Shown: positions 2,230 through 10,291 of the stretch, one piece after another | How the letters are laid out: the number at the start of each line of letters is the position of its first letter | Numbering within the stretch: the stretch's first letter is position 1 | Origin: Saprolegnia diclina VS20 | Lineage: Eukaryota > Oomycota > Saprolegniomycetes > Saprolegniales > Saprolegniaceae | Assembly: GCF_000281045.1 (NCBI RefSeq) | Contig: NW_008246092.1 | Coordinates: forward strand, 523,405-560,626 | Reading direction: 5' to 3' | Length of the DNA: 37,222 nucleotides | Position numbers and translations under genes: made by a program | The notes under the pieces: generated by a model | Told to the model about the DNA's origin: nothing | Databases searched by the model: none | What the model saw: only the letters and a program-made list of their open reading frames with translations

Positions 2230-2562
2230 CTATCCCTTTCACGCTTCGTTTGTTATATAATTTTGTTGCTTTTCTCGCGTTCGTTCTGTCGAGTGAAGGG
2301 TCCTTTCCTGCAACGGCAAACTCAACAAGGGGTAGGGTCCACGGCCGTTTCCTATCAGTTTGTATCGTGTTCCCGTACCATCGTACGTCATGGCAGTTGT
2401 GCGCCGCCCGACCGTTTTGGGTCCGCACCATGTCATGCGTCGTGTCCCGAATCGGTGGCCAATCGGTCGGCGCAACCGCCGGCGCCATTTTGATGCACCG
2501 GTCGCGCGCCGTTGGCGACGGCCGTGGGCCGACCGAGCGCAGTGCCACATTTGCGCGGCAGC
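2230..2562. other. intergenic: 3' end of M3 peptidase gene and promoter of zinc-repeat gene
   Basis: No gene is seen in these 333 bases. A CCAAT pentamer (GGCCAATCGG around 2457-2466) lies about 100 bp before the downstream ATG and could be an NF-Y type site. Open frames here start at non-ATG codons and look non-coding. Confidence 0.5.
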
Positions 2563-3619
2563 ATGGACGACAATAGCTTTGTCAAGTCGTTTTTTGTCGA
2601 AGACATTGTGCGGAGGTCGTCGCCGCTCGAGCTCGCGACGCCGCGGTCCATGACCGACTTCAACTTTCAATCGGAGGACTCGGACTTCTTCGACGAGTAC
2701 CCGCTGCTGGACGACGACATCAAGACCGAGACGCACGACCTGTTCGAGCCGCTCGACCCGCTCCTCTCGACGCCCGTGCTGCAGAAAGCCGACCTCGCAC
2801 TCTTCTCGTTCCCGTCGAGCCCCGCGTTTGAAGTCCGCGGACCCCAACCCGCCTACTACCACAACCACTACAACAGCATGATCCACACGCTTCCACAAAA
2901 CTACCTCAGTAGTCACTTGTCCAGCAGCAGCCATCCTCTGCCGCCACCACCTCATCATCAGGCTACAACGCATAGCTCGGTGCAGCAGCCGGCCATCTAC
3001 CCGAGCGCGATGATGCCGCCACTGTACAAACCACCGCCGCCCGTCTTGCCCATCATGCGCTCGTACTCGTACCCGATGAAGCCCGCACCGGTGCCGATCA
3101 CAACGACCAAGATTCCCGTCCAGCGGTCGGCGACTGTCCCAACGACCGCAAAGGAACTCGATGACGCAACGTCGTCATCTTCGTTCAAATCCAAAGGCAA
3201 GCGCTGTACGATCGCAGGATGCACGCGCCGTGCGCAGTCCAACAACCGCTGCAAGGCCCACGGAGGTAGGTCCGCTACCATGCTCTTTCGGGGTTGACAG
3301 GCGGAGGCATGTCGTAGGTGGAGCGCGGTGCCAGTTTCAGGGATGCCCAAAGAGCTCGCAAGGCGGCGGCTACTGCCGGGCGCACGGCGGTGGGAAAAAG
3401 TGCGAGTTCGAAGGCTGCACCAAAGGGCAGCAGCGCAAGGGCTTTTGCTACGCCCACGGCGGCATCCGCAAGTGCAAGCAGGCCCACTGCGACAAGAAGG
3501 ACCGCGGGAACGGGTACTGCATTGCGCACGGCGGCGGGAAGCGCTGCTCGGTCGACGACTGCGTCAACGCCGTCCGGAAAGGCCGGTTTTGCCGCGTCCA
3601 CATGCCCGACGACGGCTAA
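2563..3619 (+). CDS. Zinc-repeat protein (WRKY19-type zinc fingers), putative transcription factor
   Basis: Two exons, 2563-3265 and 3318-3619, with a 52-nt intron (GTAGGT...GTAG), giving 334 residues. The C-terminal third (about residues 215-331) holds five copies of C-x4-C-x(9-10)-C-x2-H followed by GG, the pattern of WRKY19-type zinc fingers that are common in oomycete proteins. The spliced frame restores the AHGGG linker between repeats 1 and 2, which fixes the intron. The N-terminal part is acidic and aromatic (SEDSDFFDEYPLLDDD region), then Pro/His/Ser-rich, like an activation domain. The in-frame codons before 2563 contain no ATG. A DNA-binding transcriptional role is inferred from family and composition; no target is known. 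The stop lies 58 bp from the stop of the convergent UGT gene. Confidence 0.85.
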
Positions 3620-6225: not shown

Positions 6226-9200
6226 CTATAGCGCCGAATGGTGGCTGCGGAGCGACTCGGTCGGGCTTGGCATGACGTCGACGATGCTCTCGAGCTCGCT
6301 CTCTTGCGTGTTGAGGCGACGGAGGAACCGCCGCAGCGTCTTGCTCGAGCCAGGCACCGGTAGCGGCGGTGGCGGCGTCGTCGGCAGCGCGCTGCTTGAA
6401 GGCCCCTCTTGCTTGAGCTGGAGCTGGCGCACGTGTGGCAAGAGGCGCTCGAGGCTCTGGCGGAACCCGATCGACTCGTTGAAGTGGTGGATGGCCGTCC
6501 GCGAGAGCGAGTAGACGAGCGCATTGTCGAGCGCCTGGAGCGAGAGCATGATCGGGACGATGGGCTTGTTGCGGTTCTCGGCAAAGGCGAGCGTGTCCCG
6601 CAGCGCCTCACTACGCCACCCATCAGGATCCCGCTGCTTCAAGACATGGGGCCTCTCGTACCTCTTGGTCGAGAGGTGCGAGAGCACGACGATGACGGCG
6701 AGGCAGCGCGGGTCCAAGATCGCGTCCTTCATGACCACTTGGCGCTGGGGACACGGGCCGTCGATCTTGCAGTCGACGCCGGCGGTCGCAAGCTCGGCCT
6801 TGAGCGTACTCGCAAACGGCTTGTGGCAGTCGCCGTGCACGAGCAAGACGTAGGTGGTGGTCCTCGGCGCGACGCCCGAGTGCTGCGAGACCGCGCAGCT
6901 CGAGTGACCGCTCGCATTCGACTGCCGCAGGACGTCGATCGTCGGCTCGACGCGCCGCTCTTCAATCTCGTCGCGGAGACCGTCGAGAAGCAACCCGAGC
7001 TGCACCTCGTACCTACACACGCCATGAGATGCCGGTGACAGAGCGAGATCGCAGCGTACTTGGCCTCGTTGTAGTCGAAGCGCACGGCGTTGCCGCTGCG
7101 AAACTTGGCCGTAATCGCCGGTCGAAAGTCCACGAGCTGGCGCGTCCAGAGGTACACTTCGAGCTCGTCCCCAATGACGACGCGGCCACAGGTGATGCCA
7201 ACGACTTGAGTAGTTCTGAGACATGCGACTCACGAGATATAGTGTACCTGGAATGTTGTGCTGCTTGGCGAAGGCGAGCTCCTTCATGCACCACTGCGAC
7301 GCGGGGTAGTCTTCGCTAAGGATCGCGAGGACGACCGAGGCGCCAACGATACCGCGCGCGATCTCTTCACGCCACTCGGAGCCGCCGCTGATGCCCGTCG
7401 GGTTCATCTGGTCGATCCACGTTGTAATAAACTGCGCTTCGAGCGAGCTGCGAATCTTGTTGGCAAAACTCGCGTGCGAATGGCAGTAGCTGATCATGAC
7501 GTCGCGTTGGCCCGCGGCTACAACAGTAAAGTTGAAATCTTGATAGTCGATACATCGATACACACCTTTTTTGATTTCGTACTGGATCGCGGTCGACGAC
7601 GCGCAGTCGAGCGCGCGTATGCCGGCGTTGTCGATAGCAATCACATCGAGCCCCATCTGGACAAGGATACGTGCGGTCTTGACGTTGCCCCGCTTGAGCG
7701 CCAAGTGCAGCGCAGTTTCGCCCTGAACAAAATAGGTATCAATGTATCAACTACAATCGCGATGTACCGTTGTGCTCATTTTGGCATGGATCTTGGCGCC
7801 ATATGCACGCAAGAGATACAAAATCCGACCCCGCGGCGTGTGTTCGAGATGCTGCTGCCGAGGCGAGCCCTCGAACGCCTTGTCCATCGGCTGGTTCTTG
7901 ACCGTCTCGTAATGCCCGAGGAGATGGACGAGCGACCGCCCGTAAATGTCCACCTACATGTTTCAGTATCAATCTATCAGTTTGAAATATCGACAAAAAT
8001 GCTACCATGTTGGGGTCGGCTTCGGCCAGCAAGAGGGCCTCGACTACATCGTAGTGGTTGTAGATTGCGGCCCACGCGAGGGGCGTCATGCCCAGCGTGT
8101 CGCTCGGATCTTCCTTGCAGTGAGCCAAGAGCAGCTTGACGACGCGGAGCTGGCCACGCATCGCCGCCTAAGACCATCCATCGTATTCTTTCGAGAGATG
8201 CGCGTACCCAATGCAGTGGCGTGCGGTGAAAGCGCCCGCAAGAATTCTCGCCGAGGATATCCGGGTCGACGCCTCCGTCCAAGAAGTGGCCGACTGTGCG
8301 CCAGTCGCCGTTGGCCGCCGCGAGGTGCATTGGCGTCAGCGCAATGTCCCCGCCCCACTCGACAAGCGTGTTGGCGAGGCTGAAGTGCCCGTTGAGCACG
8401 ATGACCTCGTACGCCGTGAGGTAAAACCTACGTAGTGCCGGTCTCGCCCACGACATTCGAGTAAGCTGTTCGCCCGTACCCGTTCCCAGGAATGTGCAGA
8501 TGGTTGGCGCCGGCACGCATCAGCGCCCGCAGGCAGTTGGGACATTCAGCGTAGTAGAGTGGTGGCGTCTTGTACTTGCGCTACGCTCGATATATATGAG
8601 ACATGCGAATCCATAGCGATGAACGGACTTGGTTGGAGACCGCAACGAGGTTTGGGTCAGCGCCGTACTTGACGAGCGTCTCGACAATCGCAGCATCCGC
8701 GTGGATCAGGGCCACGTGCAAGGGCGCTAAGAGCACCTGCGACCATCGCCGTTGAGTCGTGTCGTCGTGTTGGGATAAAGAGGTTAGGGTATATGTTACC
8801 TGTGCCCACGGCTGGCTGGGTCCGTACCGAGCATTCGTCGATGTCGCACGGGCAAAGTTCGTGCTCCGCAGGAAGATGAGCACGTTGAAGATCTTGGCGT
8901 AAATGTGCGAGAGGCGGAAGCTCAGGGTCTGGATCTTCTCGAGCGCGTTCGGGTCAAAGCCCCGCTCCAGAAGGAGCTGGACGACGGGCAGCCGGCCGTT
9001 GACGACCGCAACGTGCAGGGGGTTGCGCACCGACTTGGCCACTTGACCAAAGCAGCGCAGCCCGTTCGAGTACCTATATACCACAAGGTGCCATCCAGAC
9101 TCAAGTAGACAACAGAATGGACCCACCACTTGATGTGGAAGCACGGGCCGTCGAGGGCGACAGCTTCGTCGAGAAGCAGAAGTAGGTCGGGCACATGGCC

Positions 9201-10291
9201 ATTCTTGGCGGCTTCGTACAGGCCTTCCTTGACCTACCGAGTGACGTCCGTTCAGCCATTGACGCCAGGTGAAAGCGTTGTACGCGCAGAATGGCTCGGG
9301 CGTGGGCACCCCAGTTGAGCCAGTCGGGGTTGGAGAAGGTAAAGAGAAGGGAGCTAGGGATGATGTTGCGCTGTCCGAGCGCCACGTCGCGCATGCGGTT
9401 GAAGAGCGTGATCTGGTACCAGCACGCGACGTACACGTACACGTCGAGGGCGGTCAGGAGAAGGGACCAGATGAGCCACGGCCACGGCGGCGGAATGTCC
9501 GTCGGGTCATCGCGCACGTGGAAGCAGCCCACGTACGCCGCATGTGCAATGCCTTCCGAGACGTGCAGGGTAATCTGGACGATCAAATACGGGATCTCGG
9601 CCATGACGAGGAGCTCGCAAAACGTGAGCAGCCACGTCTTCTTGCTCTCACGCGTGTACAGCTGGTACCTGCGTAGTAGGTAAGCTCTTGCAGCATAAGG
9701 ACCCGTTCGGTACCTAGGGTTGTGGATCGCGGGGAGGCAGAGCAGAATGTTGGCCAAGCCCGTGTACACGGTAAGCGTGATGCCATCCAAGAACGCGTCG
9801 CAGGTCGCGCCGTTGTCGCCGTACTTCTTGCGCTTCATTTCCGGTCGGACGATGAAGATGGACGCGAGGATAAAGATATGGACAAGCGTGATGCGCACGG
9901 TCCACGAGATCATGCGCGAGCTCACAAACGTGTTGCCGTACTCGGCGAACTGCGGGATGCACGTCGCGACGCGCGAGACCATGGGCAGCACCAGCTGCGG
10001 CAGCGTGCGCTCGCACGCCTTCATGTGCTCCTGCAGCGTTCGGTCAAAGTGCTGGTCGTCTTCGGTGCGCGGCGTGTTTGACCAGCCGTCCTGCTGCGGC
10101 GACGGCAGCATGGGCATGCTCCCGCGCCGCTTCTCGCCGCCATGCTGCGGCGTCGTGACCGAGATGAAGGACGTGTGGCAGCCGGATGGCATCATGATGT
10201 GGGTCGTGAGCGGCGACGGCAGGTCCTCCTCAGGCTGCGTATCGTCCTGGGAGCTCATGCGCCGGGCCAAGGTCGGGCTGGCATGTGTCAT
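6226..10291 (-). CDS. Transmembrane-ankyrin-TIR-TIR protein (putative NADase-type sensor)
   Basis: Thirteen exons: 10291-9714, 9668-9284, 9233-9127, 9073-8800, 8736-8629, 8580-8480, 8427-8208, 8167-8006, 7953-7768, 7722-7566, 7517-7248, 7204-7060, 7012-6226; it closes in frame at 1159 residues. Order: polar N-terminus; four membrane helices (about residues 130-150, 171-189, 206-229, 255-282); ankyrin repeats about 320-760 (for example RTPLHWAAMRGQLRVVKLLL and TALHLALKRGN); TIR1 about 764-930; TIR2 about 952-1110; Pro/Ser tail. TIR1 begins DVMISYCHSH and carries SEDYPASQWCMKEL, the motif holding the catalytic glutamate of plant and SARM1-type TIR NADases (here Glu839). TIR2 aligns but lacks that glutamate. 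The first in-frame ATG is 10291. Known: TIR domains either signal by assembly or cleave NAD+. Inferred: a membrane receptor reading ligands or partners through ankyrin repeats and signalling by NAD+ cleavage. The intron at 9669-9713 keeps frame and could be retained. Confidence 0.9.

Follow-up and report, generated by a model that had tools for sequence, protein, structure and literature searches.

TIR enzymes have been studied in bacteria, in plants, in animals through SARM1 and lately in amoebae, and a 2026 preprint covering 7,432 eukaryotic TIR domains describes uncharacterised clades found only in eukaryotes as well as the tandem TIRs of Dictyostelium TirE (PMC13142454). A term search of the main text of PMC13142454 returned no mention of oomycete, ankyrin or stramenopile. 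For the oomycetes, a 2022 review devotes one sentence to uncharacterized ankyrin repeat-TIR proteins and also lists oomycetes among the groups whose TIR proteins can bear short additions, transmembrane regions for example (PMC9153377). Here we describe a gene of Saprolegnia diclina VS20 on the minus strand at 6226..10291 of the window, that is, of the whole 37,222-nucleotide stretch of DNA analysed. Its predicted protein joins four membrane helices, a long ankyrin array and two C-terminal TIR domains, TIR1 and TIR2.

The proteins of the review come from the same lineage and likewise combine ankyrins with TIR; although the review section names no gene, they are very probably the present family. 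That section gives no membrane domain, second TIR, catalytic comparison or function (PMC9153377). The original prediction had suggested that the layout could be that of an uncharacterised sensor; it is not entirely new, the ankyrin-TIR combination being already mentioned there for oomycetes. A literature search, with subscription papers and supplements mostly outside it, returned no functional study of the family and no report of an invariant-cysteine membrane bundle, a dead TIR2, a fixed ankyrin-TIR joint or the oomycete spread. The family probably constitutes a genuine NAD-based signalling system that has escaped study.

Several known proteins share parts of this layout. The plant TIRs RPP1, RPS4 and AT1G72930, several of which are named as NAD-cleaving enzymes (NADases), have the glutamate motif WCxxEL in common with TIR1, but the TIR in the window lies C-terminal to ankyrins and is accompanied by a membrane bundle and a pseudo-TIR; a Pfam scan of the protein for the NB-ARC and LRR parts of a plant TNL gave no match. 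SARM1, with the layout ARM-SAM-SAM-TIR, couples a repeat domain to a C-terminal TIR NADase, as may be the case here. Unlike SARM1, the window protein has ankyrins instead of ARM repeats, four membrane helices and a second, apparently dead TIR; the Pfam scan found no SAM or ARM match, and SARM1 was absent from the 45 PDB matches of a TIR1 profile. Toll-like receptors, with an LRR ectodomain and a single transmembrane helix, differ from the window protein, which has no LRR match in Pfam and four hydrophobic segments. The CRISPR-associated TIR protein Cat1, which is bacterial and soluble, was the best PDB match of both TIR1 (1.4e-9) and TIR2 (0.011) but has no ankyrin or membrane part. TRPA and TRPN channels and plant ACD6-type proteins also combine ankyrins with membrane helices, but in these the ankyrins precede the membrane part and no TIR is present, and TRP channels have six helices. 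Dictyostelium TirE carries two diverged tandem TIRs beside a repeat region, as here, but its repeats are RCC1 rather than ankyrin (PMC13142454).

The gene and its two TIR domains

A search of 5.8 billion proteins returned 383 relatives (E<=0.001). We examined the 120 that were listed, and family counts below refer to these 120 or, with the window protein added, to 121 rows. The predicted gene has 14 exons encoding 1142 amino acids (aa), from an ATG at 10291-10289 to a stop at 6228-6226. The model aligns end to end with the annotated Saprolegnia parasitica protein SPRG_02069 (P0001), with 1068/1140 aligned residues identical and 3 gap positions. All 13 exon junctions are continuous in this alignment, and the Achlya model P0002 has a short stretch missing at one junction. 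The 13 introns are all GT-AG and 40-63 nt long, and the GC content at third codon positions of the exons is 0.846 versus an intron GC of 0.484. A single gene on this strand had been proposed, and the end-to-end match bears this out. The proposed 13 exons became 14, because comparison with SPRG_02069 revealed an additional 51-nt in-frame intron inside TIR2 (6611..6661) that was presumably overlooked in the earlier count. Pfam domain scores given here come from the 13-exon model (1159 aa), run before this revision. As claimed, the membrane part and the ankyrin-TIR part lie in one predicted protein, and hydrophobic-segment counts over the 121 rows indicate the same for relatives; the layout is not due to chance.

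TIR1 (aa 760-905; 6991..7517, introns included), whose predicted helix alphaE extends to about aa 927, alone scored above both Pfam cut-offs, with 69.8 bits for TIR_2 (cut-off 28) and 26.6 bits for TIR (cut-off 21.3). It is the best-conserved part relative to S. parasitica (143/146 residues). In the PDB, a profile of 13 of the 15 printed TIR1 rows (P0101 and P0120 left out) matched, after Cat1, AT1G72930 (5e-5), RPS4 (3.1e-4), RPP1 (4e-4) and AbTIR (0.0024). Alongside TIRs of plant disease resistance, the best matches include entries whose names describe them as NAD hydrolases or ADP-ribosyl cyclases. Glu839 (codon GAG at 7279..7281, motif WCMKE) aligned on the WCxxE glutamate of RPP1, AT1G72930, RPS4 and Cat1. 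In the AlphaFold2 model, made for S. parasitica P0001 with 60 chosen family members (mean pLDDT 76.6), Trp835, Cys836 and Glu839 sit on helix 834-845, corresponding to alphaC. Glutamate occupies this position in 117/117 residues, three of the 120 relatives being gapped (P0063, P0110 and P0117); W835 and C836 are kept in 118/118, and W808 and R809 in 119/119. Thus, the catalytic-type glutamate predicted for TIR1 is in place, and TIR1 carries at the sequence level what marks a TIR NADase, a glutamate in helix alphaC. A search of short proteins with the TIR1 profile, long proteins being out of its reach, gave 13 matches at E<=1e-5, and all 7 bearing an organism name are from oomycetes. PADLOC phage-defence models matched TIR1 weakly (best PDC-S66 at 6.8e-8, ThsB at 1.7e-6), which indicates TIR kinship and no more.

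TIR2 (aa 949-1078; 6421..6861, intron 6661-6611 included) is more diverged. On its own the window TIR2 reached 1.2e-3 and 19.7 bits against Pfam TIR_2, under the cut-off, and that of the paralogue on contig C68 of the same genome scored 43.2 bits, above it. A TIR2 profile was made from 8 of 14 printed rows, leaving out 2 with long inserts and 4 with a decayed or missing TIR2. Comparison of the 13-row TIR1 profile with this one by hhalign gave 97.9% probability over 111 columns, with Thr1021 (codon ACG at 6592..6594) opposite Glu839, in agreement with the family alignment. The P0001 model predicts an alternating strand-helix TIR fold for both domains. Two C-terminal TIR domains had been proposed; the first is supported by its Pfam scores and the second by hhalign and the predicted order of strands and helices.

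The two domains differ at the catalytic position. At Thr1021, gapped in 7/120 relatives, the remaining 113 have Gln (102), Thr (3), Ala (2), Leu (2), Ser (2), Val (1) or Pro (1), and neither Glu nor Asp occurs in any of these 113 residues. TIR2 is further decayed in one clade (P0112, P0115 and P0118). TIR1 and TIR2 are therefore not equivalent, TIR2 being a conserved but apparently dead partner, and this contrast within one protein argues that the TIR1 glutamate is kept for function.

The ankyrin joint, the membrane bundle and the oomycete family

The long ankyrin array of the original prediction was recovered as about ten repeats at aa 373-759 (7567..9027, introns included), with a Pfam Ank_2 match of 1.7e-37 and an ankyrin stack in the predicted fold. 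Its joint to TIR1 is fixed: the spacing from ankyrin C747 to TIR1 Y770 is 23 residues in 120/120 listed relatives, whereas the TIR1-TIR2 distance varies from 51 to 279 (n=114). In the P0001 model the last ankyrin helix (751-762) passes directly, without a linker, into the first TIR1 strand (764-769). A full-length fold search returned only ankyrin-type structures among the 50 matches listed per search, so the TIR pocket cannot be read from it.

Four membrane helices were supported both by hydrophobic segments and by four long helices in the P0001 model. The predicted helices span aa 124-154 (9830..9922), 165-184 (9740..9799), 205-233 (9548..9634) and 255-283 (9398..9484), the last extending to 293 in the predicted fold. 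Across the 121 rows, four hydrophobic segments precede the first ankyrin in 98, five in 9, three in 6, one in 1 and none in 7. Helix 3 carries Cys210-Glu211, the latter being Glu in 112/113 residues with 7/120 gapped. In the 98 rows, mean Lys plus Arg is 7.2 in the loop between helices 2 and 3 versus 2.9 and 1.3 in the other loops; because of this charge the loop is predicted to lie inside, along with the N and C termini, leaving two outer loops. Each predicted outer loop has an invariant cysteine, Cys164 between helices 1 and 2 (9800..9802; 110/110 residues, 10/120 gapped) and Cys241 between helices 3 and 4 (9524..9526; 112/112 residues, 8/120 gapped), and a disulfide probably joins them. The membrane region alone as query found 6 proteins at E<=0.01, and since these are close relatives and the query itself, this does not decide whether the bundle occurs outside the family.

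Every listed relative with an organism name is an oomycete; the other listed rows carry none, and the 263 unlisted matches could include other groups. The named relatives, among which the predicted layout of membrane part, ankyrins and tandem TIR recurs, represent 15 genera: Saprolegnia, Achlya, Thraustotheca, Aphanomyces, Globisporangium, Pythium, Phytophthora, Nothophytophthora, Plasmopara, Bremia, Peronosclerospora, Peronospora, Hyaloperonospora, Albugo and Lagenidium. In a quick midpoint-rooted tree of 52 hand-chosen rows out of 121 (P0063 dropped), three clades each mix Saprolegniales with Peronosporales or Albugo rows, which suggests duplication of the family prior to the separation of the orders. 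One of these clades has just one long-branch row, Thraustotheca P0086, on its Saprolegniales side, and the program reported the placement of this row as unsure. The S. diclina genome has at least four loci, namely the window and loci on contigs C68, C29 and C5; all three paralogues have Glu in TIR1 and Gln in TIR2, and C68 matches P0086 best. A gene like SDRG_11320 was sought in this genome, and only known loci matched, assembly gaps being possible. Given the old paralogue clades and the four loci here, a lower bound, the genes do not resemble a rapidly expanding family of recognition genes, despite at least 7 Globisporangium splendens entries among the relatives listed.

Other TIR-like stretches occur in this genome, with 14 matches in total at E<=0.1. 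An open frame at L014 (G000:C25:160000-166000) encodes SAM, then TIR_2, then a further C-terminal part, resembling SARM1 parts in another order. Another at L018 (G000:C5:47000-53000) combines a TIR-like stretch (27.9 bits, just below the cut-off) with SAM and ricin-type lectin repeats, and L013, L015, L016 and L017 contain further TIR_2-like stretches.

The downstream gene, at about 5822-3700 on the minus strand, lies about 400 bases away. Two database models, P0003 from Thraustotheca and P0005 from Aphanomyces stellatus (1678 and 1891 aa), match it with their tails, which bear the UDP-glycosyltransferase family PF00201. Pfam scans of single open frames of this gene found no PF00201, as expected for an intron-split gene. 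P0003 and P0005 are probably mis-joined fusions with it, and we did not take them for longer receptors; the fused models point to conserved gene order in Thraustotheca and A. stellatus. Upstream, 12079-11095 on the minus strand encodes a xylose isomerase-like TIM barrel (PF01261, AP endonuclease 2 type), and an open frame at 2494-3297 on the plus strand matches a WRKY19-type zinc finger (PF24906, 1.9e-7). A nucleotide search of plasmid records with window bases 1-25000 gave no match.

Readings of the function

We consider it somewhat better than an even bet that the protein is a TIR NADase anchored in the membrane and under the control of its ankyrin stack and pseudo-TIR. The four helices would anchor a cytosolic ankyrin stack running into TIR1. 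A trigger at the membrane or the ankyrin surface, such as binding of a ligand or partner, clustering, or stretch, with the outer loops as another candidate site, would lead the TIR1 domains to assemble. Through Glu839, NAD+ would then be cleaved, yielding nicotinamide together with an ADP-ribose product. This product may be a signal, with a plausible link to calcium, or else NAD+ may simply be drained. TIR2, a flexibly tethered TIR fold lacking the catalytic glutamate, would be a partner in regulation or assembly. Because the invariant glutamate adjoins a TIR that has lost it, the simplest interpretation is an enzyme paired with a regulatory twin.

Several observations weigh on the other side. 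A conserved glutamate is insufficient by itself to prove NADase activity. No significant structural relative of the membrane bundle was found (0 Foldseek matches at E<=0.001), connexin and tetraspanin bundles being no more than candidate resemblances. In addition, the C5 paralogue (L012, G000:C5:1163500-1171500) keeps the TIR1 glutamate but has Arg in place of the WC Trp and a gapped BB-loop region; a stop, possibly an intron, interrupts its reading frame.

Compatible with such an enzyme, and quite conceivable though falling short of probable, is a role in general developmental or calcium signalling, with a cyclic ADP-ribose (cADPR)-like messenger acting in growth, sporulation or osmosensing, rather than in an immune or death sensor. 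The family occurs in genera of very different lifestyles, and copy number is low in the S. diclina genome, the one in which it was measured. Copies are not few everywhere, as G. splendens illustrates, and the TIR enzymes known from other organisms act mainly in defence or cell death. For this family we regard general signalling as likely as an immune role. No CD38 homologue is reported from P. infestans or S. diclina (PMC4820453), which leaves room for another cADPR source and would make a calcium link attractive. Our scan of the S. diclina genome for the CD38 family PF02267 gave no match, but its control gave none either. A bolder and more doubtful proposal is that of an ancient oomycete-wide receptor class with an active TIR NADase and a dead TIR in cis, comparable to a kinase and pseudokinase, that would supply a cADPR-type calcium messenger where no CD38 homologue is found.

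Less likely still is a scaffold without enzyme activity, in which both TIRs do no more than bind other TIR proteins, in the manner of Toll-like receptors and MyD88. TIR1 does weakly match the non-enzymatic TIRs of TLR2 and MyD88 (E 0.017 and above), and TIR2 lacks the catalytic glutamate, both of which would suit a scaffold. Set against this, Glu839 and the WC pair are invariant wherever a residue is present, across old paralogue clades, whereas no such constraint kept the glutamate in the adjacent TIR2. The least probable alternative, a TRP-like cation channel with a TIR tail, derives from the database name 'TRP-CC family protein', and membership of the TRP channels was rejected because no channel family was found in 38 members (Pfam, E<=0.01) and four helices precede the ankyrins instead of six following them. 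A P. infestans protein with this name, PITG_05737, which may or may not belong to the present family, is listed as tyrosine-nitrated (PMC6647872).

If a membrane-anchored NADase paired with a pseudo-TIR is what these genes encode, the 'TRP-CC channel' names on several of them need correction, and the source of an ADP-ribose-type calcium messenger without a CD38 homologue would become testable (PMC4820453). The protein would also offer a natural pair of active and dead TIRs in which to study the control of TIR activity. With a membrane TIR class conserved across the oomycetes, a group that includes pathogens of crops and fish, TIR signalling would reach one more branch of the eukaryotes.
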